A DNA stretch of 64,000 nucleotides, from assembly GCF_025340265.1 (NCBI RefSeq), contig NZ_CP022707.1, positions 1,302,501-1,366,500 of the forward strand, read 5' to 3'. The notes under the pieces were generated by a model, which saw only the letters and a list, made by a program, of their open reading frames with translations, was not told the origin of the DNA and ran no database searches. Numbering within the stretch: the first letter of the stretch is position 1; each line of letters opens with the position of its first letter. Positions 14,401 to 25,692 of this stretch are shown one piece after another. The position numbers and the translations under genes are program-made. Source of the stretch: Novosphingobium sp. 9 (GTDB taxonomy: Bacteria > Pseudomonadota > Alphaproteobacteria > Sphingomonadales > Sphingomonadaceae).

Positions 14401-14585
14401 GCGGCAGCCTTCCACTCACCGCGACGCGTAAGCTCGGCGATCAGGTCAAAGGTGGGCGCAGCATGGAGAGGGCTGTGAACAGGCAGACCATCGACCCACT
14501 TGCGATAGGCCCGCTCGTCGCGATCCATTTCCCGGCGCTCGCGGAAGGTTTGCGCGCCAGTGCGCTTGATTGCTGCGCGCTTCAT
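14397..14585 (-). CDS. Very small basic early protein
   Basis: 62 residues, basic and helical at the N-terminus (MKRAAIKRTGAQTFRERREMDRDERAYRKWV). It overlaps its neighbours by four bases on both sides (ATGA at 14582-14585 and at 14397-14400). No family recognised. Confidence 0.6.
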   Translation of the reverse strand: MKRAAIKRTGAQTFRERREMDRDERAYRKWVDGLPVHSPLHAAPTFDLIAELTRRGEWKAAA

Positions 14586-14812
14586 GCGGCTTCTGCCCCA
14601 GCCTGGCGGGCCGCAGCAACCTCATCTGCAACGATGACCATCCGCTTGTGCAGCTTGTCCACCGTCTCGGGCCAAAGGCGCCGACCGTTGCGGATATCCC
14701 GAACAAAGTGCGGGTCGCTCATTGTTCTGCGGCCGAAAGTGATTTCCGACATTCCGGCGTCTGCCACGAATGCCTCAATCTCGGCGAGAAGCTCAGGGTG
14801 ATGCTTGGACAT
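14582..14812 (-). CDS. Cro-like transcriptional regulator
   Basis: 76 residues from the ATG at 14810-14812. 'LLAEIEAFVADAGMSEITFGRRTMSDPHFVRDIRNGRR' has the layout of a Cro/CI helix-turn-helix. It is divergent from the S24 repressor with a perfect 18-bp palindrome between them, which is the cro position. An upstream ATG at 14836 would lie inside the promoter spacer and is rejected. The predicted transcript start is within a few bases of the ATG, so this message may have almost no leader. Confidence 0.75.
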   Translation of the reverse strand: MSKHHPELLAEIEAFVADAGMSEITFGRRTMSDPHFVRDIRNGRRLWPETVDKLHKRMVIVADEVAAARQAGAEAA

Positions 14813-14820
14813 GCACACCC

Positions 14821-14860
14821 TTCTAAGGTAGGACATGTCCTACCGTCAATAGGATATGAT
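14821..14860. promoter_or_regulatory. Divergent cro/cI promoters with repressor operator O1
   Basis: The perfect 18-bp palindrome GGTAGGACATGTCCTACC occupies 14827-14844. On the leftward strand it fills the 17-bp spacer between TTGACG (14849-14844) and TTAGAA (14826-14821), so a bound repressor would block cro transcription. Rightward, a -10-like TATGAT lies at 14855-14860 with only a weak -35 inside the palindrome, as expected for an autoregulated repressor promoter. Confidence 0.75.
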
Positions 14861-14911
14861 GGGACTAATCCCAGCCTTCCCATTCTTAATGAGAAGTGGG
14901 ATGCGCCCTAC

Positions 14912-15649
14912 ATGCAAGAGGACATCACGCCCTTACAGCGCTTCATCCGCGCAGCCATCGATGTCTCGCCCGAGAAGCGCGATTTCTATGATAAGCTGCT
15001 TCAGGCCAAGCTCGGCACCAAGGGCAAGCCGATCTATGATATCGATCGCGGCAAGAGCAAAAACCCCAGCCTCGCGCAGCTGAATGCGATTTCCGAAGTG
15101 CTTAAGCAGCCGCGAGAGCTATTTGAGCGGGCAATTGCTGGCGAGGACGTCGAGCCGGTTCGAAGCGCGATCAGCCATGTCTATGCGCCGCCGGTCATGC
15201 CCGATATCCCGTTGACCCGGAGCATCAATGCGGACGAGCCTACAGTAGAGCTGGCATCCCTTGACCTCTCTTATTCGATGGGGCCTGGCACCGAGCTGGA
15301 AAGCTATATCGAGCAAGAGCCGATCCGCTTCGATCCGGTGTTCATTCGGCGCCTGACGCGCGCTCCTTATGAGCGCCTCAAGCTCGCGCGCGGTGTGGGC
15401 GACAGCATGCAGCCGACGCTTCTGCCGGGCGATGTCGTGATGATCGATACGACCCAGAACATGCTGAACATGTCAGATCGGGTATATGCCGTGGCCCTTC
15501 ATGGTGCGGCGGCGATCAAGCGTATCCGGCTAGATAAGGGCTGTAAGGTTCTCGTGGTTTCCGACAACCCTGCTGTCGAGAACTACACGATCGATGCCGA
15601 GGACGTGATCGTTCATGGACGAGTGATCTGGTTTGGCAGGGAGCTTTAG
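14912..15649 (+). CDS. CI-like phage repressor with S24 autocleavage domain
   Basis: 245 residues from the ATG at 14912. The N-terminal ~75 residues carry the DNA-binding part ('KPIYDIDRGKSKNPSLAQLNAISEVL'). The C-terminus is an S24/LexA-like domain with GVGDSMQPTLLPGDVVMID, nucleophile Ser165 and base Lys203 (AAIKRI). Such repressors maintain lysogeny and self-cleave after RecA activation. It faces the Cro-like gene across operator O1. Earlier in-frame starts run through the operator and cro region and are rejected. The ribosome-binding site is weak. Confidence 0.88.
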   Translation: MQEDITPLQRFIRAAIDVSPEKRDFYDKLLQAKLGTKGKPIYDIDRGKSKNPSLAQLNAISEVLKQPRELFERAIAGEDVEPVRSAISHVYAPPVMPDIPLTRSINADEPTVELASLDLSYSMGPGTELESYIEQEPIRFDPVFIRRLTRAPYERLKLARGVGDSMQPTLLPGDVVMIDTTQNMLNMSDRVYAVALHGAAAIKRIRLDKGCKVLVVSDNPAVENYTIDAEDVIVHGRVIWFGREL

Positions 15650-15666
15650 GGAGCAAGCTGTAGCCC

Positions 15667-15975
15667 ATGGCAAAACCCAAACCCAAGCCGGTCCACGAAC
15701 GAGCAGCCCGGGCGCTATGCCTGCTCGATAGCAACCCGCCCGATGCAACCATGGACGGCAAGCCGCTATGGATGGATTACCTGCCTGAGGTACGGGCGGT
15801 CCTTCAGGCTATCCGCGAGCCCGACGAGGCGATGATCGAGGCGGCGTCGCATATCTCGGCGGGCGAGATCAGCGCGGCAGATACCGACTTCCGCGATGGG
15901 TTGGATGCGGCTCGGGCCATGGTCGTCAAGGACTGGCTCAAGATGATCGACGCTGTACTGGGTGAAGCGGGGTGA
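15667..15975 (+). CDS. Hypothetical protein co-oriented with the repressor
   Basis: 102 residues. A basic N-terminus (MAKPKPKPVHERAARAL) precedes a helical body, with 'IREPDEAMIEAASHISAGEISAADTDFRDGLDAARAMV' matching short proteins often seen in sphingomonad prophages. It starts 17 bases after the repressor stop and is probably expressed with it in the lysogen. Function unknown. Confidence 0.65.
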   Translation: MAKPKPKPVHERAARALCLLDSNPPDATMDGKPLWMDYLPEVRAVLQAIREPDEAMIEAASHISAGEISAADTDFRDGLDAARAMVVKDWLKMIDAVLGEAG

Positions 15976-16044
15976 GGGCCCTTTCCGCCTTTTAACTTTG
16001 CGGGACTCGGGTGGGGCGGGTCTTAGGGGGTTTTGCGGGGGTGA

Positions 16045-16896
16045 ATGGTGCAGGCTGAACCGCGTTTCCACATATTCATCGACGAAGCTGGAGATCCCGG
16101 CGTTAAGCAGAAGTCTGGTGAGGAGCCGGACTGGACCGATTGGTTCGTAATTTCAGCCGTCGTAATGGATGCGCATCGCGAACAAGAAGCCAATGAGTGG
16201 ATAGCCGAGATGAACCAGGCTATCCGGCGCAACCCGCCCGCCTCGATCCATTTCAGAAATCTCTCGGATGCGAACCGTCGCCATGTGTGCCGGGTGATGG
16301 CAGAAAAGCCTTTAAGAATTTTCGTGGTCGCCTCGCATAAGACATCCATGAGGCGCCACGTAAGCAAACGCCTCGGCGTAGCAAAGGCGCAAGATTTCTA
16401 TAATTGGTGCGTTCGCTTATTGCTTGAGCGGGTCACTGAATGGTGTGCTGGATGGAGCAGGCAAGAGGGCCGTGATGTTCAGCCCGCGAGAATTGTCTTC
16501 TCTGAAAAGGGCGGGCACGATTATGGAGAGTTGAGAGATTATTTGCGCAAGCTGCAAGCGCAAACCCTCACTGGGAATCTGACTTTGGACCGGAAGGGTA
16601 TCACATTGGGCGTGATGAGAGATGATCTGATCGAAGTTATCGGCCATAACGATCTGGCTGGCCTACAGCTCGCCGATATAGCCGCCAGCGCATTTTTTCA
16701 GGCGGCGTGCTCGCCTCAGAAGAGGCATACCGTCGAATTTGCCACCAAGCTGATGGGAAGGGTGGCTCGTCAAGGCAGACGAAAATTTCCCGATCGGTTC
16801 GGCCTTATGCTGCTGCCATTCCCGCACCAAGGACAAATCCCTGTAGCTGATAGGCGAATATTCGAATTGGGCGGGTATCGCTTCCCGAAGGCGTGA
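16045..16896 (+). CDS. DUF3800 family protein
   Basis: 283 residues. The family signature is clear: 'FHIFIDEAGDPGVKQ' at the start with the conserved acidic pair, a central region with 'FSEKGGHDYGELRDYL', and 'GHNDLAGLQLADIAASAFFQA' near residue 200. DUF3800 is viewed as an RNase H-like nuclease fold, but its activity is poorly defined. It sits next to the repressor, where phages carry lysogen-expressed extra genes, and is less GC-rich than its neighbours, suggesting separate acquisition. An antiphage or host-interaction role is possible but unproven. Confidence 0.85.
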   Translation: MVQAEPRFHIFIDEAGDPGVKQKSGEEPDWTDWFVISAVVMDAHREQEANEWIAEMNQAIRRNPPASIHFRNLSDANRRHVCRVMAEKPLRIFVVASHKTSMRRHVSKRLGVAKAQDFYNWCVRLLLERVTEWCAGWSRQEGRDVQPARIVFSEKGGHDYGELRDYLRKLQAQTLTGNLTLDRKGITLGVMRDDLIEVIGHNDLAGLQLADIAASAFFQAACSPQKRHTVEFATKLMGRVARQGRRKFPDRFGLMLLPFPHQGQIPVADRRIFELGGYRFPKA

Positions 16897-17041
16897 CGAA
16901 CGCACCTGTCCATCGAAGCTGATAGGTCGGCATTCCTTGCGTCCAACCGTCTTCGGAACCGCCTCCCAGGGCGAAACTGGTACGTGCTGGAAGTACGTTC
17001 GTCAGCCTACGAGATATCACAGGCGATCGGTAGTGTGAATC

Positions 17042-17066
17042 CCCCGCCCGCTCCGGCGGGGCTTTT
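17042..17066 (+). terminator. Rho-independent terminator
   Basis: Stem CCCCGCC / GGCGGGG (17042-17048 and 17055-17061) followed by CTTTT. It probably ends the repressor/DUF3800 transcript about 145 bases after the DUF3800 stop. Confidence 0.6.
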
Positions 17067-17188
17067 CACATCGGCACGCGACATAGCCCCACATTCGCCA
17101 CCCTTTTTCCATTGCAGCAGCACAGAAAATAGCCATGATCGGCGTTCTGGCGCTACCCAGACGCGCTGGTTGTATTTTCCTTGCACTA

Positions 17189-17218
17189 GCCCTGCCTCTT
17201 CGGAGGCGGGGCTTTTTT
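17189..17218 (+). terminator. Rho-independent terminator with UUCG loop
   Basis: Stem GCCCTGCCTC / GAGGCGGGGC closed by TTCG and followed by six T (17213-17218). A classic strong terminator for rightward transcription. Confidence 0.75.
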
Positions 17219-17261
17219 GCCATATATGGCGAGTGCCAAAGCGGCCAGTGCGCTTTCTCAG

Positions 17262-17360
17262 CTATTTGCGGCGATCCCGGCTTCGCATGCCCAGCACCGC
17301 CATCACGCCCACAAGAGCGCAGATCACCAGCCCAAACCCCCAGCGGTCCGTCGTTTTCAT
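17262..17360 (-). CDS. Tiny single-helix membrane protein (paralogue B)
   Basis: 32 residues, MKTTDRWGFGLVICALVGVM followed by AVLGMRSRDRRK: one hydrophobic helix and a basic tail. GAGGAG lies nine bases before the ATG at 17358-17360; another Met two codons earlier has too short a spacing. It matches the 51-residue protein encoded just upstream over the first ~20 residues (MK-T/S-TD-x-WG), so the pair arose by duplication. Function unknown; holin-like or exclusion roles are guesses. Confidence 0.55.
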   Translation of the reverse strand: MKTTDRWGFGLVICALVGVMAVLGMRSRDRRK

Positions 17361-17448
17361 TGGCATAAACTCCTCGTCGCATAATGCCTCAGGAGCCAGA
17401 TCGGTTTCGACCTCTGGCGCGACTTGGCCTTTCTTGGGAGGCGGGGCC

Positions 17449-17604
17449 CTACCGCAGCGCGTGCCAGGCAAGGAAAGCCAGCACTAGCGCCGCCATGCCG
17501 ATATAGATCGCCCGGCGCCCAACGCCCTTCACGCCCGGTAGCACCACAACCGCCAGCACTGCATACGTCACCAGTGCCAAGCCCCACCAGTCGGTCGATT
17601 TCAT
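17449..17604 (-). CDS. Tiny two-helix membrane protein (paralogue A)
   Basis: 51 residues, MKSTDWWGLALVTYAVLAVV then a short basic turn and a second hydrophobic helix ending AFLAWHALR. A strong ribosome site (AGGAGGG, seven bases) precedes the ATG at 17602-17604. Its first helix is similar to the next leftward gene. A hairpin plus a shared GTCGC-containing element lies upstream of both. No family recognised. Confidence 0.6.
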   Translation of the reverse strand: MKSTDWWGLALVTYAVLAVVVLPGVKGVGRRAIYIGMAALVLAFLAWHALR

Positions 17605-17670
17605 CGGTATGCCCTCCTGTGGGTAGGATGCCTGTGGGTGGGGATGGAGTCGAGCCTCTGATGCGACGTA

Positions 17671-17696
17671 GCCCTGCTGGGAGGAGGGGCTTTTTT
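17671..17696 (+). terminator. Terminator-like hairpin upstream of the tiny membrane genes
   Basis: GCCCT ... AGGGGC stem with a purine-rich loop followed by six T (17691-17696) on the rightward strand. For the leftward tiny gene it would lie in the 5' leader, so it may be a terminator for rightward transcription, a leader structure, or both. Confidence 0.45.
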
Positions 17697-17713
17697 GTGC
17701 CTCCAGAAGAAAA

Positions 17714-17766
17714 GTAGGAGATATCCCACGAAATGCGTTGACGGGTAGGACCCATCCTACTATTCC
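17714..17766 (+). promoter_or_regulatory. Rightward early promoter with repressor operators O2 and O3
   Basis: TTGACG (17738-17743) and TATTCC (17761-17766) are 17 bp apart. The spacer is GGTAGGACCCATCCTAC, an imperfect copy of operator O1, so the architecture equals that of the cro promoter. A third site GTAGGA-GATA-TCCCAC lies upstream at 17714-17729. The promoter would drive the small genes, methyltransferases and integrase. Confidence 0.75.
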
Positions 17767-17825
17767 AGTCTTTATCAGCCCAACACCCCAATCCATCGGA
17801 TCGGGGTCGGGCAAAGGAGACAACC

Positions 17826-18029
17826 GTGCAACTCGCACCCCAACATCACAGTAATCCGGTAGCTCGCCCCGTAACCAACATTGCACTCGTGCCGGTTGAG
17901 CGCGCTGCTGCGCTGCTCAGTGATTTTCTCGCCGCTCTGGACGGCGAGCTTCAGCCGCATAGCGACCTGATGCTGTACGCCAAGGCCCGCGCCGAGCGGC
18001 AGCTAAAGGAATGGGGGATCGCCCGATGA
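17826..18029 (+). CDS. Small hypothetical protein, first gene of the rightward operon
   Basis: 67 residues from a GTG with AAGGAGA six bases upstream, about 55 bases after the predicted transcript start. 'VERAAALLSDFLAALDGELQPHSDLMLYAKARAERQLKEWG' predicts two helices. It overlaps the next gene by four bases (ATGA). Function unknown. Confidence 0.65.
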   Translation: MQLAPQHHSNPVARPVTNIALVPVERAAALLSDFLAALDGELQPHSDLMLYAKARAERQLKEWGIAR

Positions 18030-18268
18030 TCCGCCTCGCTGCTCTCGCCGCTGGCGCCACGGCTGGCATCCTGATCGCCGCCGATCGCTTCTCCGCCTGG
18101 CTGATGGCCACCGACGCAACGGCTCGCACCGTCGTCCAAGGCCCAGCCGTCACCGCGCTCGCGCTGATCGGCGCCGCTGCCGTCGCGCTCGCCACCTGCG
18201 CGGCTGGCATCCTTTTCATCACCGCCCGCCCGTCGGGTCGCACCGCGGCGCCGGAGGATCGCGCATGA
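18026..18268 (+). CDS. Small two-helix membrane protein
   Basis: 80 residues from the ATG at 18026 (ATGA overlap with the previous stop). Two hydrophobic segments, at about 2-20 (IRLAALAAGATAGILIA) and 42-67 (AVTALALIGAAAVALATCAAGILF), suggest an inner-membrane hairpin. It lies among early genes, not in a lysis module, so a holin role is unlikely; exclusion of other phages is one possibility, without direct evidence. Confidence 0.6.
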   Translation: MIRLAALAAGATAGILIAADRFSAWLMATDATARTVVQGPAVTALALIGAAAVALATCAAGILFITARPSGRTAAPEDRA

Positions 18269-18477
18269 CGAACCCCGGCGCCGCAACCACCGCTTCCGCT
18301 CTCACGCTGACCTTCGAGGAAGCCGAGGCCGTCGCAGCCGACCTGGCGCGCGTCTGGCCCGGCATGACCGGCATCGCCGCCGTGCCGAAGGTCGAGATGC
18401 TGGCCGACCTCGTCCAGCGCACCAACCGCAAATCGCGCGAGATCATCGTCGCACGGGAGACGTCCAGTGTCGTATGA
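18265..18477 (+). CDS. Small hypothetical protein
   Basis: 70 residues, ATGA overlap with the previous gene. One helical domain (LTFEEAEAVAADLARVWPGM and PKVEMLADLVQRTNRKSREIIV). No family recognised. Confidence 0.55.
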   Translation: MTNPGAATTASALTLTFEEAEAVAADLARVWPGMTGIAAVPKVEMLADLVQRTNRKSREIIVARETSSVV

Positions 18478-18706
18478 AGTCACGATCCGCTGCGGGGTCC
18501 AGAAGGGCGATCCTGCGGCCAAGATCCGCTGCCATTCCGATCCGCAGGCCCGCCAGCCGGTGCCCAGCGTCGAGAAGGGCACCAGCCGCGATGCGATCGT
18601 CGCGGTCGAAGCGAGGGCGCGCGGTCTCGACTGGGTGAACCGCCGCCGTATGTCCCGGCCCTCGATCTGGATCTGCCCTGCGTGCGTGGAGGCCGGACAT
18701 GGCTGA
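18467..18706 (+). CDS. Small hypothetical protein
   Basis: 79 residues from a GTG at 18467 inside the end of the previous gene. Three Cys and a C-terminal WICPACVEAGHG suggest a small metal-binding knuckle. The next gene begins before its stop. Function unknown. Confidence 0.55.
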   Translation: MSYEVTIRCGVQKGDPAAKIRCHSDPQARQPVPSVEKGTSRDAIVAVEARARGLDWVNRRRMSRPSIWICPACVEAGHG

Positions 18707-18980
18707 TGCTCCACACCAGTGCTTCACGGCCAGCGCGACCTCCTATTTGCGCAATATGGACCATGAGGACCGGCGCGAGCCGTGTTTCGCGGTACACTAC
18801 CAGAAGCCGCCCGAAGACGCGGGTAATGGCATGCGCTCGATCAGCCTCAATTTCCCTCTGCTCGTCGTGTCGCTCTACGCAGATGCGCCGAAGGACGTGG
18901 CGGAACGAGTGGCCCGCATTCTCAATGCGCACTGGGACAACCCGGAGTTCAATGAACTGACGGAGGCACCCCATGCCTGA
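18699..18980 (+). CDS. Small hypothetical protein
   Basis: 93 residues. 'ISLNFPLLVVSLYADAPKDVAERVARILNAHWDN' suggests an alpha/beta fold. It overlaps the genes on both sides (8 bases each). No family recognised. Confidence 0.6.
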   Translation: MADAPHQCFTASATSYLRNMDHEDRREPCFAVHYQKPPEDAGNGMRSISLNFPLLVVSLYADAPKDVAERVARILNAHWDNPEFNELTEAPHA

Positions 18981-19095
18981 GCCCGACCGCAAGATCCGGC
19001 TGCGCCTCGTCACCGGCCATCACGTCATCTTCGACAACATGATCGACCTCTTCGACTTCGTGGTCGAGCGCATGATCGCGCGAGGTGACCTGTGA
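18973..19095 (+). CDS. Very small hypothetical protein
   Basis: 40 residues, MPEPDRKIRLRLVTGHHVIF then DNMIDLFDFVVERMIARGDL. The ATG lies eight bases inside the previous gene and the stop overlaps a GTG of the next frame. GGAGGCACCCC is just upstream of the start. Size and overlap fit the operon style; function unknown. Confidence 0.55.
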   Translation: MPEPDRKIRLRLVTGHHVIFDNMIDLFDFVVERMIARGDL

Positions 19096-19136
19096 TCCAC
19101 CCCTTCACGACGTCAGTCCTACCGGAAAGGAAGCTC

Positions 19137-19241
19137 ATGTCCCCGGCTGAACGTCACCCCACCCGCAATCGTGCGGGAATTGGGCGCGCCTGGGGGCCGC
19201 GCGGGGAAGCCCCCACCATTTTCAGCAAGGATCGAGCATGA
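19137..19241 (+). CDS. Very small basic protein preceding the C5 methyltransferase
   Basis: 34 residues from the ATG at 19137-19139, which has AAGGAAG just upstream; the same frame is open from a GTG at 19092 that overlaps the previous stop (49 residues). It ends in an ATGA overlap with the methyltransferase start, so it may serve mainly to couple translation. Rich in Arg, Pro and Gly; function unknown. Confidence 0.45.
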   Translation: MSPAERHPTRNRAGIGRAWGPRGEAPTIFSKDRA

Positions 19242-21231
19242 CCGGCATTATCGTCGACAACTTCGCCGGCGGCGGCGGGGCATCCACCGGCATCGAAGCC
19301 GCGCTGGGCCGCGCCGTGGATATCGCCATCAACCATGACGAGCAGGCGATCCGCATGCATGAGGCCAACCACCCCGGCACCCTGCATATCCGCAACAACA
19401 TCTGGCAGATCGATCCTGTAGAGGTCGTGCGAGATCTTGTCGCCAAGCTGCGTGCTTCGGATCCTTCGCGCCACATCGAGATCAATCCGCTCACGCGTCT
19501 GCCGCGGGTATCGCTCGCTTGGTTCTCGCCGGACTGCAAACATTTCAGCAAGGCCAAGGGCGGCAAGCCGCGCGAGAAGTCGATCCGCGATCTCGCATGG
19601 GTTGTAGTCCTGTGGGCGAAGCGGGTGCAGCCAGACCTGATCCTGCTGGAGAACGTTGAGGAGTTCCAGACCTGGGGGCCGCTCTGCGATCAGGGCTTCC
19701 CGATCAAGGATCGCGCGGGCGAGACGTTCCGCCAGTGGTGCAGCGAGCTTCGCAAGCTGGGCTACAAGCTGCAGTTCCGCGAGCTGCGCGCCTGCGACTA
19801 TGGCGCGCCGACGATCCGCAAGCGCTTCTTCATGGTCGCGCGCCGCGACGGCAAGCCCATCGTTTGGCCGGAGCCGACGCACGGCAAGCCCGGCTCGCCC
19901 GAGGTGCTCAGCGGCAAGCGCCTGCCATGGCGCACGGCAGCCGAGACCATAGACTGGTCGATCCCGTGCCCGTCGATCTTCGAGCGAAAGAAGCCGCTGG
20001 CCGAAAAGACCCTGCGCCGCATCGCGCACGGCATCATGAAATTCGTGGTGAACAACCCGGCGCCGTTCATTGTCCCTGATGCTGCCCCGTTCTTCGCGCG
20101 CACAGCGCATGGCGATGTCGACAAGAATGGGAAGCGGCGCGGCCAAGGAAGCCATGGGCCGGAGGAACCGTTCCCAACCGTGACGCAAAGCGGCGATAGC
20201 GCGCTGATCGTCCCGCACATCACCAAGTTCCGCTCCGGCGCGATCGGGCATGATGTCGGCGAACCGCTGCACACCGTGACCGCGAACAGCTTCGTGAAGC
20301 GCCCCGGCGGCAGCGCGCCGCTGGGCGTGGTCGAGGCGGCCATCGCTCCATTCGCTACCTATGCCCAGCAGGGCGGCGCGAATCGCTCGCTTGAAGATCC
20401 GCCCCACACCGTGACGGCATCGAACAAGGATCAGAACTGCGTCGCGGCGGCGACGCTAGTGAAGCACAATTTCGGAGATAGTCCGGCCCAGGACCTCGAT
20501 GCGCCGTTGCACACGGTCACGACGCAAAGCAACAAGTTCGCGACAGTCACCGCCTTCATGCAGAAGTTCGCCCAGAACGGGCAGGGGATCGACCCGAGCG
20601 AGCCGCTCCATACGGTGATGGCTGGCGCGCCAAGGCATGCAGTCATATGCGCGCACGTCGAGCAGGCCAACGGCGGCCCGAACAATGAGAACCTGGCCGG
20701 TCGCGCTGCCGATGCCCCGCTGTCGACCATCGCCACGGCAGGCAGCCAGCAGCGCCTAGTGACGAGCAACCTGCTCAAGCTGCGCGGCACCAGCGACAGC
20801 CACATCGAAAGCAGCGCGAAGAGCGTCGAGGCCCCTCTCGACACCATCAGCGCCCGAGGCACGCACATGGCCGAGGTCCGCGCGTTCCTGATCAAGTATT
20901 ACGGCAACGAGCAGGACGGCCACGGCCTCGGTAATCCGCTCGGTACCGTCACCGTGCAGGATCGCTTCGGCCTCGTCACCGTGACGATCGCGGGCGAGGA
21001 ATATGTCATCGTCGATATCGGCATGCGCATGCTCACCCGCGCGAGCTGTTCAACGCGCAGGGCTTCCCCGCCGATTACCAGATCGAGACGGACGCCCACG
21101 GCCTGCCGATCACGAAGACCGCCCAGGTCGCCAAATGCGGCAACAGCGTCTGCCCGCCGATCGCGGAAGCTCTCGTACGTGCCAATATGGCTGGCGAGAT
21201 CGAGCAGGCGCAGGAGGCGCGGGCCGCATGA
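19238..21231 (+). CDS. Phage C5 cytosine DNA methyltransferase with a repeat-rich target region (one-base frameshift)
   Basis: About 664 residues after adding one C to the run at 21036-21038; without it the frame leaves the conserved end. Motif I is VDNFAGGGG (6-14); the catalytic motif is PDCKHFS (98-104, Cys100), a known variant of PPCQ; motif VI is ENVEEF (138-143). The restored C-terminus reads PRELFNAQGFPADYQ ... CGNSVCPPIAEALV. Between about 300 and 590 lie eight ~40-residue units, each with an E/D/A-PL-x-TVT-like core, where target recognition domains are expected. Probable role: modification of phage DNA against host restriction, or regulation. Confidence 0.85.
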
Positions 21232-22592
21232 CCGCCATCGCTCTTCCGACCACTGTCGCCGACATCATCGACGAGTACGCAAGCAAGGATGCCGCGATCG
21301 AGGACGCCATCGCAGGTTTCTCGCGCGCTTACGACCTCTTGGGCATGTCTGCCACGGTGCAGGGCGTGTTCGTCGAAAACGTGGCCTCGCGCCCGTACCT
21401 GCATGCCAGCAGCCTGCGCCGCAACCTGCTGAAGTCGGGCTGGCGCGCGGTCTACAACCGTCTGCAGATCGAGAGCATCACCAGCGCCAAGGACCGCAAG
21501 CTGTTCGACCAGGCGCTGGCCGACCCGCCGCCGCTGACCATGGAGACGGCCAAAGCCACCTTCGGTGATTATCTCACCCGCCCGCGCTTTCATATCCTGC
21601 GCGGCCTGGCCGAAGCCTTTACCCAGCTGGACCCCGCCTACAAGTCACACACCAAGGTGCGGATCGGTGCAAAGGGGCTGCCCAAGCGTGTCATCCTGAG
21701 CAACTGGGGCGGCTTTTCCAGCACCTATGGTCGCGATCTGTTCAAGAACATGGCGGATGCGCTTGCCGCCGTGCGCGGCCAGTCGGCGGTCGAGTGGTGC
21801 GAGATGCTGGACATCGATGAGCAGCACAAGGTGGGCGGTGATGCGGTGATGAATGGCCGGACCCTCAAGCGCTTTCGCGCAGGCCAGCCGGACGAACCTT
21901 TCGCGGCGCCCGATCGCGGCCTGACGATCCGCCGGTTCGCGAATGGCAACGCGCATGTATTCTTCGACCGGGATGCGCTGGTCGCCGTCAACCGCGGGCT
22001 GGGCGAATTCTATGGCGAGGTGTTGCCGGACGCGGAAGAGGAGGGCGTGAAGCCCAGCGCCAGCACTGCCGTATCAAAAGACCTGCAGTTCTACTGGTCG
22101 CCGCCAGCGGTGATCGAGGCTGCGCTGGAGTTCGCTGGCGTGCCGAGCCCCGCGCACTACCGTTCGGGCTATCACAAGATGCCGGTCCAGCGGGTGCTCG
22201 AGCCATCGTGCGGTGACGGGCGCATCCTCGATGCTCTGCGCGAGCGCGGACACCGGGCGCTTGGTATCGAGTATCACCCGGGCCGTGCCGCCGAAGCACG
22301 CGCGAAGGGGCACGCCGTGTTGGTAGCGAACTTCCTGGAACACCCGGCGACGCCCGAGTTCGATGCGGTCGTGATGAACCCGCCGTTCTACGGTCGGCAC
22401 TACGTCCAGCATGTAAGGCACGCTTACACGTTCCTGCGCCCCGGCGGCACGCTGGTGGCGATCCTGCCCGCGACCGCGCGCTACGATTACGGCGAACTGG
22501 CGGGCGAGTGGCGGGATCTGCCTGTTGCGAGCTTTGCCGAGGCAGGAACGAACGTGCCCACCACCATGCTCAAGATGAGGGCACGTCCGTGA
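21228..22592 (+). CDS. DUF4942-type class I methyltransferase (NPPF motif)
   Basis: 454 residues from the ATG at 21228, which overlaps the previous stop (ATGA). The first half resembles DUF4942 regions found with phage methyltransferases. The second half is a Rossmann methyltransferase: 'RVLEPSCGDGRILDALRERGH' (SAM motif I) and DAVVMNPPFYG near residue 384, the NPPF catalytic motif of amino-methylating DNA enzymes. Likely an adenine N6 or cytosine N4 DNA methyltransferase; the target site is unknown. It is the second of three methyltransferases in a row. Confidence 0.85.
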   Translation: MTAIALPTTVADIIDEYASKDAAIEDAIAGFSRAYDLLGMSATVQGVFVENVASRPYLHASSLRRNLLKSGWRAVYNRLQIESITSAKDRKLFDQALADPPPLTMETAKATFGDYLTRPRFHILRGLAEAFTQLDPAYKSHTKVRIGAKGLPKRVILSNWGGFSSTYGRDLFKNMADALAAVRGQSAVEWCEMLDIDEQHKVGGDAVMNGRTLKRFRAGQPDEPFAAPDRGLTIRRFANGNAHVFFDRDALVAVNRGLGEFYGEVLPDAEEEGVKPSASTAVSKDLQFYWSPPAVIEAALEFAGVPSPAHYRSGYHKMPVQRVLEPSCGDGRILDALRERGHRALGIEYHPGRAAEARAKGHAVLVANFLEHPATPEFDAVVMNPPFYGRHYVQHVRHAYTFLRPGGTLVAILPATARYDYGELAGEWRDLPVASFAEAGTNVPTTMLKMRARP

Positions 22593-22600
22593 CCAGTCAT

Positions 22601-22825
22601 TCAGCCAAAATCGCGATACGCCGTAGCGGGATCGTTCATCGCTGGAGCAGCAGCATTCGCCTCGTCATGAAAGTATTGGAAACGCCGAGCGAGCAGGGTC
22701 GTGTCGACATTTCCCCTGTTGTTGATTGCTTCTTGAAGGCGTCGCAACGTGCGACGTTTGAGCACAGAGTATCGCAGGAATTTGCCTGTCGCCCCCATGA
22801 GCGCGAATTGCTCGGCTTTGGTCAT
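22601..22825 (-). CDS. Small hypothetical protein, antisense within the methyltransferase cluster
   Basis: 74 residues from the third of three consecutive ATG codons (22831, 22828, 22825), with AAAGGA just upstream. The product (MTKAEQFALMGATGKFLRYS ..., 'FQYFHDEANAAAPAM') is helical and plausible. The interval is visibly less GC-rich than its surroundings and carries no rightward gene. A separate, recently inserted lysogen gene is likely; function unknown. Confidence 0.55.
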   Translation of the reverse strand: MTKAEQFALMGATGKFLRYSVLKRRTLRRLQEAINNRGNVDTTLLARRFQYFHDEANAAAPAMNDPATAYRDFG

Positions 22826-22926
22826 CATCATTCCTTTATTTTAGCGCTCTGTCGGACGATTCCGAATCGGTCGCACAGCAAACCTCCGAGATTACAGGGG
22901 GGCCTGGCAAATCGGGCTGAGAGCGC

Positions 22927-23496
22927 ATGACATGGCCCTTCGGCGAAATGCGCCCCATGTCCTACGGCGCTCTGCTGGTCGATCCCCCTTGGCAATTCCG
23001 CAACTACAGCGCGAAGGGTGAAGCAAAGAACCCCGTGTCGCACTACGCATGCATGTCGCTTGCCGACATCGCCGCGCTGCCGGTCGCGCACCTCGCAGCA
23101 CCGGACTGCGCGCTGTTCATGTGGGCGACGGCGCCTATGCTGCCTGAGGCTATAGAGCTGCTCAAGGCATGGGGCTTCACGTACAAGTCGGGTGCGGCCT
23201 GGGCAAAGCAGTCGAGCACCGGCGCGCGCTGGGCGTTCGGCACTGGCTATGTGTTCCGTTCGGCGGCCGAATTTCTGCTGGTCGGAACGATCGGCAAGCC
23301 CCGCATTCGCTCGCGCCGCCAGCGCAACCTGATCGTCGCGCCGATCCGCGAGCACAGCCGCAAGCCTGACGACCAGTACGCCATGGTCGAGGCTCTTTAT
23401 GCCGGGCCTTACGCCGAGATTTTCAGCCGCTCGAACCGGCCCAGATGGGATTGCTGGGGTAACGAGGCGGGCAAATTTGAGCGAGGGATCGCATGA
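22927..23496 (+). CDS. MT-A70 family adenine methyltransferase
   Basis: 189 residues with the family hallmarks: LLVDPPWQFRNYS (DPPW at 19-22), 'DCALFMWATAPMLPEAIELLKAWGFTY', 'FGTGYVFRSAAEFLLVG' and 'RPRWDCWGNE'. MT-A70 phage members methylate adenine N6 in DNA. The start may instead be the Met at 22957, 10 codons later. Its stop overlaps the DUF4031 gene (ATGA). Confidence 0.9.
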   Translation: MTWPFGEMRPMSYGALLVDPPWQFRNYSAKGEAKNPVSHYACMSLADIAALPVAHLAAPDCALFMWATAPMLPEAIELLKAWGFTYKSGAAWAKQSSTGARWAFGTGYVFRSAAEFLLVGTIGKPRIRSRRQRNLIVAPIREHSRKPDDQYAMVEALYAGPYAEIFSRSNRPRWDCWGNEAGKFERGIA

Positions 23497-23855
23497 CCTG
23501 CTACGTCGATGACGTCCGACACCGCTTCGGCAACATGGTGATGTGTCACCTCTGGGCGGACACGCTCGACGAGTTGCTCGCCATGGTCGACCGGATCGGG
23601 GTGCAGCGGAAGTGGATACAAGGTCACCCGACCTTGTCTTTCGGCAAACACCGACATGCCAGCTGGGTACATTTCGATATCGCGCTTTCGAAGAAGCAGC
23701 TCGCAATCCAGGCTGGCGCGGTTCTCACTGATCGGTACGGCCCTGTTGAGCACACCGCGCGCCTTGCATTGCGCAGCGATGACGCTGACTGCCGTGAGCG
23801 AGCAGAGCGCAAACTGGCAACGATCGCCGAGATCCGTGGAAGGAATGACGCATGA
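23493..23855 (+). CDS. DUF4031 domain protein
   Basis: 120 residues. The N-terminus (CYVDDVRHRFGNMVMCHLWADTLDELLAMVDRIG) and 'ASWVHFDIALSKKQLAIQAGAV' match DUF4031, small proteins common in phages beside DNA-modification or replication genes; activity unknown. ATGA overlaps join it to the MT-A70 gene and to the next small gene. Confidence 0.8.
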   Translation: MTCYVDDVRHRFGNMVMCHLWADTLDELLAMVDRIGVQRKWIQGHPTLSFGKHRHASWVHFDIALSKKQLAIQAGAVLTDRYGPVEHTARLALRSDDADCRERAERKLATIAEIRGRNDA

Positions 23856-24133
23856 CCGCCCACAGCATCGCCCAGAAGTACCGTCGCGCGCTCCGCAACC
23901 AGACCGGCGCCACCTTCTCCCTCGCCCAGCTCCAGGAGCTCGCCGGTTATGGCGTGCTCGAAACCATCTCCCGAATCGAAGCGAACGAACTATGCCCCGC
24001 GACACCAGCCCCTACATCCTCGGAGATTACTGGCTCGACCAACGCCGCGATGGCCGTGCCCCCGGTATCTGGCAAATCGCAACCGCCCGTGGACGGTCGG
24101 TCGTTTATCGCAGCACTCGCAAGCGGTCGCTGA
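23852..24133 (+). CDS. Small protein in excisionase position
   Basis: 93 residues starting with an ATGA overlap. The N-terminal 50 residues (AQKYRRALRNQTGATFSLAQLQELAGYGVLETISRIEANEL) look like a genuine helical DNA-associated domain. The rest overlaps the integrase by about 140 bases and has biased composition, so the true protein may be shorter or the 3' part only tolerated. A gene directly before int is the usual place of an excisionase, but the fold is not proven. Confidence 0.5.
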   Translation: MTAHSIAQKYRRALRNQTGATFSLAQLQELAGYGVLETISRIEANELCPATPAPTSSEITGSTNAAMAVPPVSGKSQPPVDGRSFIAALASGR

Positions 24134-25254
24134 CCGAGGCCAAGGCGGTAATCGAAGCCTACGTCGCGGAGCTGCGCGCGCTTAATACGCGCCAGACGCC
24201 AGCGGAGGCGGGGGTGGGGGCCATTCTCGTCACGTACTGGAAGGAGAAGGGGCGCAAGGCGGTCAACAACGACCAGACCAGCCGATCCCTTCGTACCTTT
24301 CTGGCGTTTCTCCTGCAGGATGCAGTGGGTATTCAAGCCGTCGTGACGGATCTTACGCCCGCGCTGTTCGAACGCTTCCGCGAGTGGCGCATGGGGCCGC
24401 ACAGCTTCAACCTCGAGTGGTTTGGCGAGACGTTCGATTACAAGAGCGAGCAGGGCGTGAAGGGCGCGACGGTCCAGCGCAACATCAACGATGTGCGGGC
24501 GGCGGTTCATCATGCCGAGGCGAACATGCGAATCACCATCGCGCCGCGCATCCCTGACCTCGACGCGCGCTATCAGTCGCCGCTGCGCGAAAGGGTGCTG
24601 TCGATCGATGAGATGGCGCGGATCGCTTGGTACGCGAGCCACAACGCGGATCTGTTCCGATTCGTGGCACTACAGTTCGCAACCGCTGTCCGGCCACAGG
24701 CGGCGCTCAAGTTCGATCCGCGCACGCAGTTCGATGTTCGCACGGGCCTGATCGATCTCCAGCCGGGTGAGGCGGCGCAGACCAAGAAGCGCAATGCGAT
24801 CATTCCGGCGATCCGACCATTCCGGCATGTGCTGCGAAACTGGGCGCGAGACGGCGCCTCAGGCGCTGCCAGCCGCAAAACGGCGTGGCGAATCATGCGC
24901 CGAGCGCTGGGCCTCTCCGATGACGTCTTCCCGAAGACGATCCGCCATACGATCGCGACGATTCTCTATGCCGATGACACGGTGCCCGAGCGCGAGATCG
25001 TTGAGCTGCTGGGGCACGAGGGCAAGCTGGCGAGGACGACTCGGATCTATGCGAAGTACGACCCGAACCGGATGCGCAACCTCACGCGTGCGCTGACCAT
25101 TTTATGGGTGACGGTTCATCGCGAAGCGAAAGCGTTTAGTGCTGACCATTTGCTGACCACTACGGGTCAGGGCGGTCAGAATGTAGTGGCTGGGAAATCC
25201 AAGGGAACGAAGGTTTCCAGCCTATCTGAGGCTGGTGGGCGCGACAGGGATTGA
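23992..25254 (+). CDS. int: Tyrosine-type phage integrase
   Basis: 420 residues from the ATG at 23992. The N-terminal half carries the arm and core-binding parts. In the catalytic domain Arg234 (TAVRPQ), Arg318 (KTIRHT), His342 (LLGHEG) and Tyr353 (RTTRIYAKY) line up with the R-R-H-Y set, but the first His of the usual HxxR box is Lys315. It integrates the phage at tRNA-Val. The last seven codons and the stop lie within the tRNA gene's 3' half on the opposite strand, so the C-terminus (GGRDRD) is encoded by attachment-site sequence. Confidence 0.92.
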   Translation: MPRDTSPYILGDYWLDQRRDGRAPGIWQIATARGRSVVYRSTRKRSLTEAKAVIEAYVAELRALNTRQTPAEAGVGAILVTYWKEKGRKAVNNDQTSRSLRTFLAFLLQDAVGIQAVVTDLTPALFERFREWRMGPHSFNLEWFGETFDYKSEQGVKGATVQRNINDVRAAVHHAEANMRITIAPRIPDLDARYQSPLRERVLSIDEMARIAWYASHNADLFRFVALQFATAVRPQAALKFDPRTQFDVRTGLIDLQPGEAAQTKKRNAIIPAIRPFRHVLRNWARDGASGAASRKTAWRIMRRALGLSDDVFPKTIRHTIATILYADDTVPEREIVELLGHEGKLARTTRIYAKYDPNRMRNLTRALTILWVTVHREAKAFSADHLLTTTGQGGQNVVAGKSKGTKVSSLSEAGGRDRD

Positions 25255-25307
25255 ACCTGTGACCCCACCCGTGTGAAGGGTGTGCTCTACCGCTGAGCTA
25301 CGCGCCC
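25233..25307 (-). tRNA. tRNA-Val (anticodon CAC), phage attachment site
   Basis: Reverse strand: acceptor GGGCGCG/CGCGCCC, D arm GCTCAGCGGTAGAGC, anticodon stem CACCC/GGGTG with loop TTCACAC (anticodon CAC), T loop TTCAATC, discriminator A and encoded CCA (25233-25235). The 3' end faces the integrase, the usual orientation of a phage att site. The second att copy should be a duplicate of the 3' part beyond the window's left edge. Confidence 0.95.
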
Positions 25308-25387
25308 GCTGTTCCGTAGCGGAAGCGCGCCTCTAGATGAGTCGGATCGAATTGACAAGCCGGGATCGGGAATTAAATCGCGCAGCC

Positions 25388-25692
25388 ATGACCGAAGAGA
25401 CCAACTCGCCCGAACCGACCGCAAACGCGGGTCCGGATGTGCCCCCGATCGTATCGCGATCAATCCGCGCAGCCCCCATTTCGATGAGGCCAAGCTGATG
25501 CGCGGCATCGGCATCCGCTTCAAGGGCACGGTGCGCACCAATGTCGAGGAATACTGCATTTCTGAAGGCTGGGTGCGCGTTCAGGCCGGCAAGGCCGTGG
25601 ACCGTCGCGGGCAACCGCTGACGCTCAAGCTCGTCGGCCCGGTCGAGGCGTGGTACGAGGATCTGGGCGAGGACGCGCCCGTCGCGAAGTAA
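25388..25692 (+). CDS. DUF3297 family protein (one-base frameshift in this sequence)
   Basis: About 101 residues after adding one C to the run at 25442-25446. The start frame (MTEETNSPEPTANAGPDVPP) then continues as DRIAINPRSPHFDEAKLM, joining RGIGIRFKGTVRTNVEEYCI, the conserved core of DUF3297, a small proteobacterial family of unknown function. First host gene after tRNA-Val. The split is almost certainly a sequencing artefact, since both halves are well conserved in pattern. Confidence 0.8.

Follow-up and report, generated by a model that had tools for sequence, protein, structure and literature searches.

The right and left operators (OR and OL) of phage lambda follow one another in steps of approximately 23–24 bp, and a lambda lysogen keeps the early promoters PR and PL shut without Cro. 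Lambda CI bound at OR1/OR2 and OL1/OL2 shuts off both lytic promoters and can join the two regions in a DNA loop (PMC5880393). N15 and phiKO2 have three OR sites between the repressor gene and cro, two OL sites and 16-bp palindrome cores, and PY54 has OR3 immediately upstream of cI, with leaderless cI and cro mRNAs (PMC4488713). Here, we describe a similar switch in a 64-kb stretch of Novosphingobium sp. 9 DNA (the window, always meaning the full stretch), where a prophage integrated in a 3.0-Mb contig carries divergent cI and cro-like genes and five related operators. The locus is very probably the immunity region of a lambda-type temperate phage, in which CI would silence PR and PL through OR1 and OL1. 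This reading is preferred because the five-site layout is kept in relatives, the CI model resembles LexA and lambda repressors, and the OL operon of one relative (G397) encodes an Erf-like annealing protein, an exonuclease, and SSB.

The window switch belongs to the well-known lambda/N15 OR/OL plan and is not a new principle. Like lambda, it has a divergent cI/cro pair, three sites in OR, another operator set at a further early promoter on the far side of cI, and a two-domain repressor fold. Its map is the mirror image of the lambda map, running from cro through OR, cI, accessory genes, terminator-like stems, and OL to early genes. Unlike lambda, it has another operator sequence, steps of 31 and 37 bp, two OL sites instead of three, and a Cro without a Pfam family. 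The OR–OL distance is approximately 2.3 kb in lambda (PMC5880393), compared with 0.8–2.9 kb between OR1 and OL1 in the loci studied here. The count of three OR and two OL sites is the same as in N15 and phiKO2; however, the N15 OL lies upstream of repA in a linear plasmid prophage, whereas the window prophage is integrated, with its integrase gene at a tRNA-Val gene and methyltransferase and integrase genes behind OL. As in PY54, OR3 adjoins cI and cro is probably leaderless, but PY54 differs in having a single operator, bound by Cro (PMC4488713).

Operators and early promoters in the window

Operator matches were scored on the 12 half-site bases, with an N4 centre, over the window. An earlier note on this DNA had claimed three sites, and a sequence check located all of them: GGTAGGACATGTCCTACC, a perfect 18-bp palindrome between cro and cI (14827–14844), GGTAGGACCCATCCTACT at 17744–17761, with 12 of 12 half-site bases matched, and OL2. 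The sites are thus real, but the count was incomplete, since OR2 and OR3 had been missed, and the layout consists of three OR sites with steps of 31 and 37 bp and two OL sites 31 bp apart (Table 1). On the scanned strand, OR2 and OR3 are unremarkable alone, the match at 14859 being one of many in the window at four mismatches and that at 14896 one of two at two mismatches; we accepted both because their positions recur in 14 relatives.

The promoter reading of the earlier note was correct, as the OR1 and OL1 palindromes fill the 17-bp spacers of two TTGACG promoters, PR on the minus strand (with TTAGAA) and PL on the plus strand (with TATTCC), both facing away from cI. A sigma-70 consensus scan of 14500–25400 listed neither promoter, and their −10 boxes are weak; TTGAC lies 1–3 bp ahead of OR1 and of OL1 in all loci compared.

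Table 1. Coordinates of operators, promoter boxes, genes, and predicted RNA structures in the window
Feature	Coordinates	Strand	Sequence	Remarks
PR −10 box	14821..14826	−	TTAGAA	
PR −35 box	14844..14849	−	TTGACG	TTGAC in 16/16 rows
OR1	14828..14843		GTAGGACATGTCCTAC	core of perfect 18-bp palindrome
OR2	14859..14874		ATGGGACTAATCCCAG	8/12 half-site bases; 31 bp from OR1
OR3	14896..14911		GTGGGATGCGCCCTAC	10/12 half-site bases; 37 bp from OR2; directly 5' of cI ATG (14912)
OL2	17714..17729		GTAGGAGATATCCCAC	11/12 half-site bases; 31 bp from OL1
OL1	17745..17760		GTAGGACCCATCCTAC	
PL −35 box	17738..17743	+	TTGACG	
Candidate PL −10 box	17761..17766	+	TATTCC	
cro-like gene	14582..14812	−		76 aa; start codon 14–16 nt beyond OR1
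cI repressor gene	14912..15649	+		245 aa; N-terminal helix-turn-helix (HTH), C-terminal S24 (LexA-like) peptidase domain
Open reading frame (ORF) 3' of cI	15667..15975	+		102 aa; without family match
DUF3800 gene	16045..16896	+		between cI and OL
Terminator-like GC stem, then TTTT	17042..17061	+		stem by eye
Terminator-like 11-pair stem, T run	17188..17213	+		called by scan
Terminator-like stem, T run	17670..17691	+		just upstream of OL2; stem by eye
Predicted PL leader hairpin	17768..17821	+		folding z −5.3; 3' arm holds Shine-Dalgarno of first PL gene
First ORF after PL	17826..18029	+		67 aa; GTG start
C5-cytosine DNA methyltransferase gene	19238..21568	+		
DUF4942/methyltransferase gene	21003..22592	+		ORF start uncertain; overlaps C5-cytosine methyltransferase ORF
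MT-A70 methyltransferase gene	22927..23496	+		
Integrase gene	23656..25254	+		PHROG 1; Pfam Phage_integrase just under cut-off

In the order proposed here, PR with OR1, OR2, and OR3 separates cro from the divergent cI, followed by two genes, terminators, OL2, and OL1/PL, which would drive the early genes (methyltransferases and integrase). CI dimers on OR1 and OL1, i.e., within the −35/−10 spacers, would keep both early transcripts silent in the lysogen, while OR2 and OL2, lying 31 bp or three helical turns upstream of PR and PL, most likely let dimers pair cooperatively along the same face of the DNA. The 37-bp step corresponds to 3.5 turns, which argues against such pairing between OR2 and OR3. 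OR3 is thereby offset by half a turn and abuts the cI start codon; its most likely role is the tuning of cI expression, whether CI binds it weakly, Cro binds it, or both do. As OR2 and OR3 are on the cI side, cI autoregulation belongs in the model. After cleavage or loss of CI, PR and PL would be free and Cro would then act on the same sites. By analogy with lambda, looping between OR and OL is plausible.

At the right edge of OR2 (window 14872–14877), TAnnnT was observed in 10 of 15 loci and CAnnnT in the other five, including the window. Together with the last base of OR2, where the consensus C occurs in no row, this element is possibly the −10 box of cI.

A motif search recovered GTAGGA-N4-TCCYAC in the 4,386,972-bp host genome at only the three reported places (reversed control, one match per strand), and scattered copies of equal quality were not seen. 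Because the motif is confined to these places, the sites are not attributable to chance. With up to one mismatch to GTAGGA-N4-TCCTAC, five places were found in the host genome, three of them the reported sites (reversed control, eight). The confinement of GTAGGA-N4-TCCYAC to the three places contradicts the idea that the prophage borrowed the targets of a host regulator, for which overlap with the promoters was the sole argument. Likewise, the 31-bp operator pair was found in only the window's own genome among 397 genomes of the family (G046, with a 33-bp spacing, escapes that pattern), and the other places found adjoin this CI/Cro pair, so that borrowing from the host appears hardly credible.

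Conservation of the operator layout

The layout of five operators was common to 14 other phage or prophage records, giving 15 distinct loci with the window (G046, whose operator sequences are identical to those of G404, was not counted again). CI relatives with 73, 58, and 54% identity had the same five sites at the same 31/37/31-bp steps. The OR2 site of G398 fell beyond the two-mismatch limit of that site scan and was seen in another comparison. When viral contigs were scanned for just the OL pair, six were recovered, four of them new (G400–G403) and all with the OR cluster. A scan with OR1, OR3, and the ATG yielded 13 contigs, seven of them new (G404–G410); in all of these, OR2 lies at 31 bp and an OL pair is present. 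At up to three mismatches, spacings of 31, 37, and 68 bp occurred 27, 14, and 15 times across the 15 loci, respectively, and any other spacing of 11–80 bp at most once; the window OR2, with four mismatches, is outside this count, and the 68-bp step was built into the search for G404–G410 and the OL 31-bp step into that for G400–G403, all other steps being free.

Each of the 15 loci has three related operators in OR, with steps of 31 and 37 bp, and a further operator set on the far side of cI, where the second early promoter lies. No third OL site was detected at up to two mismatches, and every OL found has two sites; a strongly diverged third would escape this search. G397 has two OL sets, the second 5.0 kb from OR1. 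In this duplication (L004 10879–10925), the OL pair and its promoter recur almost identically 3.9 kb further along, in front of a methyltransferase gene, and an antirepressor gene lies just ahead of the second copy.

The proposal of the earlier note that one operator family wires two early promoters to one repressor is supported as the best reading of the sequences by this fixed geometry in 15 loci. It is further backed by the CI/Cro pair beside each of them and by the changed operator cores of G139, whose repressor has diverged. In G139 (CI 50% identical), the geometry is kept with cores of GTRGG-N6-CCYAC at both OR and OL, the sixth-position bases differ, and one OR2 half is degenerate, a pattern that co-divergence of operator and repressor would produce.

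For a control, we scored palindromy (maximum 18) at the positions of the three OR sites ahead of every in-frame start of the CI relatives. The score was 14–17 in 16 family rows, 12 in G139, and at most 10 in 26 relatives further removed, the majority of them matching CI in the C-terminal part only (L011 has no usable start); shuffled upstream stretches reached 12 in 0.04% of 13,550 tries. An earlier, stricter scan would miss G139 and was not relied on.

Perfect half-sites were seen in all 16 OL1 sites and in OR1 of all 16 rows (a condition of the search in seven of the rows), while OR3 was GTGGGA in 16 of 16 rows, demanded for seven by the OR1+OR3+ATG search and free in the rest. From these base differences, we hypothesize an affinity code in which OR1 and OL1 are strongest and OR3 is different. 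The N4 centre of OR3 (window 14896–14911 and relatives) is biased to AGCG/TGCG, unlike those of OR1 and OR2.

Among the relatives, the host names comprised only Novosphingobium indicum, and G046 and G139 belong to the same family as the window. In 50,697 phage records, 69 matched CI, all with <60% identity, and the best near-full-length match among the best 20 of the 69 was 34%. Our literature search turned up no work on operators of this kind in these phages. The loci form a family of immunity regions from at least 15 phages or prophages, which has a readable operator code and follows a 31/37/31-bp spacing rule. This code would allow superinfection immunity groups to be predicted, and the differences among OR1, OR2, and OR3 provide direct hypotheses on CI versus Cro affinity.

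Repressor and Cro proteins

The cI and cro-like genes are divergent around the operator cluster in 15 of 15 loci, and all 15 CIs contain an S24 domain. The predicted CI structure has two domains and matches LexA/lambda repressors, its N-terminus matching CI/Cro HTH domains. Residues 123–124 of the window CI are Met-Gly (SMGPG), nearly invariant across the family, in the position where S24 repressors usually have an Ala-Gly scissile bond; the serine and lysine are kept.

The palindromes could instead be primarily Cro sites, with CI binding elsewhere or weakly. In PY54, Cro binds only the palindrome adjoining cI (PMC4488713). The window Cro has a confident HTH model (AlphaFold; predicted local distance difference test score, 87.7) and is conserved about as well as CI, with identities to the window protein of 44–71% compared with 36–73%. 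Nevertheless, we consider this improbable, as the best-matching sites, OR1 and OL1, sit in lytic promoters that a lysogen must hold shut without Cro, and no other palindrome common to PR and PL was noticed by eye in the aligned regions. The cro start codon follows OR1 by 14–16 nt in 15 of 15 loci (in G397, in-frame ATGs at +9 and +15 are both possible), and the cro mRNA is probably leaderless because this is about where the PR RNA should begin.

Genes behind OL

The G397 OL operon, which starts with the Erf-like protein, exonuclease, SSB, and NinB, resembles the P22/lambda PL operon in gene content, whereas the window has methyltransferases and an integrase 3' of OL. The first PL gene varies among relatives (Erf, HNH, methyltransferase, or unknown), and tblastn with the three methyltransferases of the window gave no match in 13 loci, a set to which the G404 PL genes did not belong.

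Alternatively, the HTH protein could be a C-protein-like controller of methyltransferase genes, and the sites part of a modification regulon rather than of phage immunity. With the Cro model, Foldseek ranked a Silicibacter DNA-binding protein first, followed in the upper ranks mostly by the restriction-modification controller C.Esp1396I (E 0.29 and worse, TM score approximately 0.55); three methyltransferase genes lie 3' of OL1, another lies behind the second OL of G397, and the first PL gene of G404 matches the same PHROGs as the window DUF4942/methyltransferase. This explanation is very unlikely, however, given the LexA/lambda-type repressor as divergent neighbour, the varying first PL gene, and the absence of tblastn matches in the 13 loci searched.

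Several observations weigh against the lambda-type immunity region. The window OR2 agrees at only 8 of 12 bases, the cI promoter is without convincing conservation and by eye has no −35 box, and OL has one site fewer than in lambda. The window CI has no HTH Pfam match, any single HTH family being found in at most 5 of 15 members, and the Cro fold matches are middling, none reaching a Foldseek E of 0.001. Finally, the integrase gene is reversed in 3 of 11 records and was not found in 3 of 14. With orientation and presence varying in this way, int does not count as a constant member of the PL operon. The earlier note had placed an operon of three methyltransferases and the integrase under repressor control; PL does carry operators and is followed by these genes, but the far-operon genes vary among relatives.

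A predicted hairpin in the PL leader

We compared 16 PL leaders (15 loci, G397 twice), with the Shine-Dalgarno sequences chosen by script. The Shine-Dalgarno sequence pairs at least partly with the first bases of the leader in 15 of 16 (G403 excepted), and folding z scores ranged from +0.03 to −5.3, with a mean of −2.4. The summed arm complementarity was 305, compared with 192.4 (standard deviation 9.5, maximum 225) when the 5' arm was shuffled 1000 times. Individually, 12 of 16 leaders reached P < 0.05, the others being the window (P 0.32, outer stem weak), both G397 copies, and G403. Own arms scored 19.1, compared with 13.4 for arms swapped among phages. In the 15 anchored leaders (without G403), 118 of 150 cells pair, compared with 58–69 of 150 in slid registers, although the unslid register is favoured because the anchors came from predicted folds. 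The hairpin covaries among the PL leaders of the window and 14 relatives, while the gene behind it differs.

Fold-back inhibition is known for transposase genes and some T4 genes. It was considered here because a PL RNA start approximately 12 nt after OL1, as a 17–18-bp spacer predicts, would leave part of the 5' arm outside the transcript, on its upstream side. RNA made from PL would then lack the 5' arm and be translatable, and read-through RNA from the cI side would carry the full hairpin and be silent. Predicted Shine-Dalgarno pairing was 0.85 in the read-through RNA, 0.53 from +12, and 0.74 in the shuffled control, so that folding backs this idea in part only. A second, RNA-level lock on PL, by fold-back inhibition of the first early gene within a lambda-type immunity region, is possible but rather doubtful. 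If the conserved hairpin does form in vivo, a textbook switch would gain a translational gate.

Other features

Terminator-like stems with a T run numbered seven in the stretch, compared with 7.7 expected from shuffles. The end of the integrase gene overlaps the tRNA-Val gene (25233–25307, minus strand). Between the DUF3800 gene and OL, the minus strand at 17262–17605 encodes two small peptides that resemble each other and look membrane-like, MKTTDRWGFGLVICALVGV... and, within a longer ORF, MKSTDWWGLALVTYAVLAV...; both run opposite to cI.

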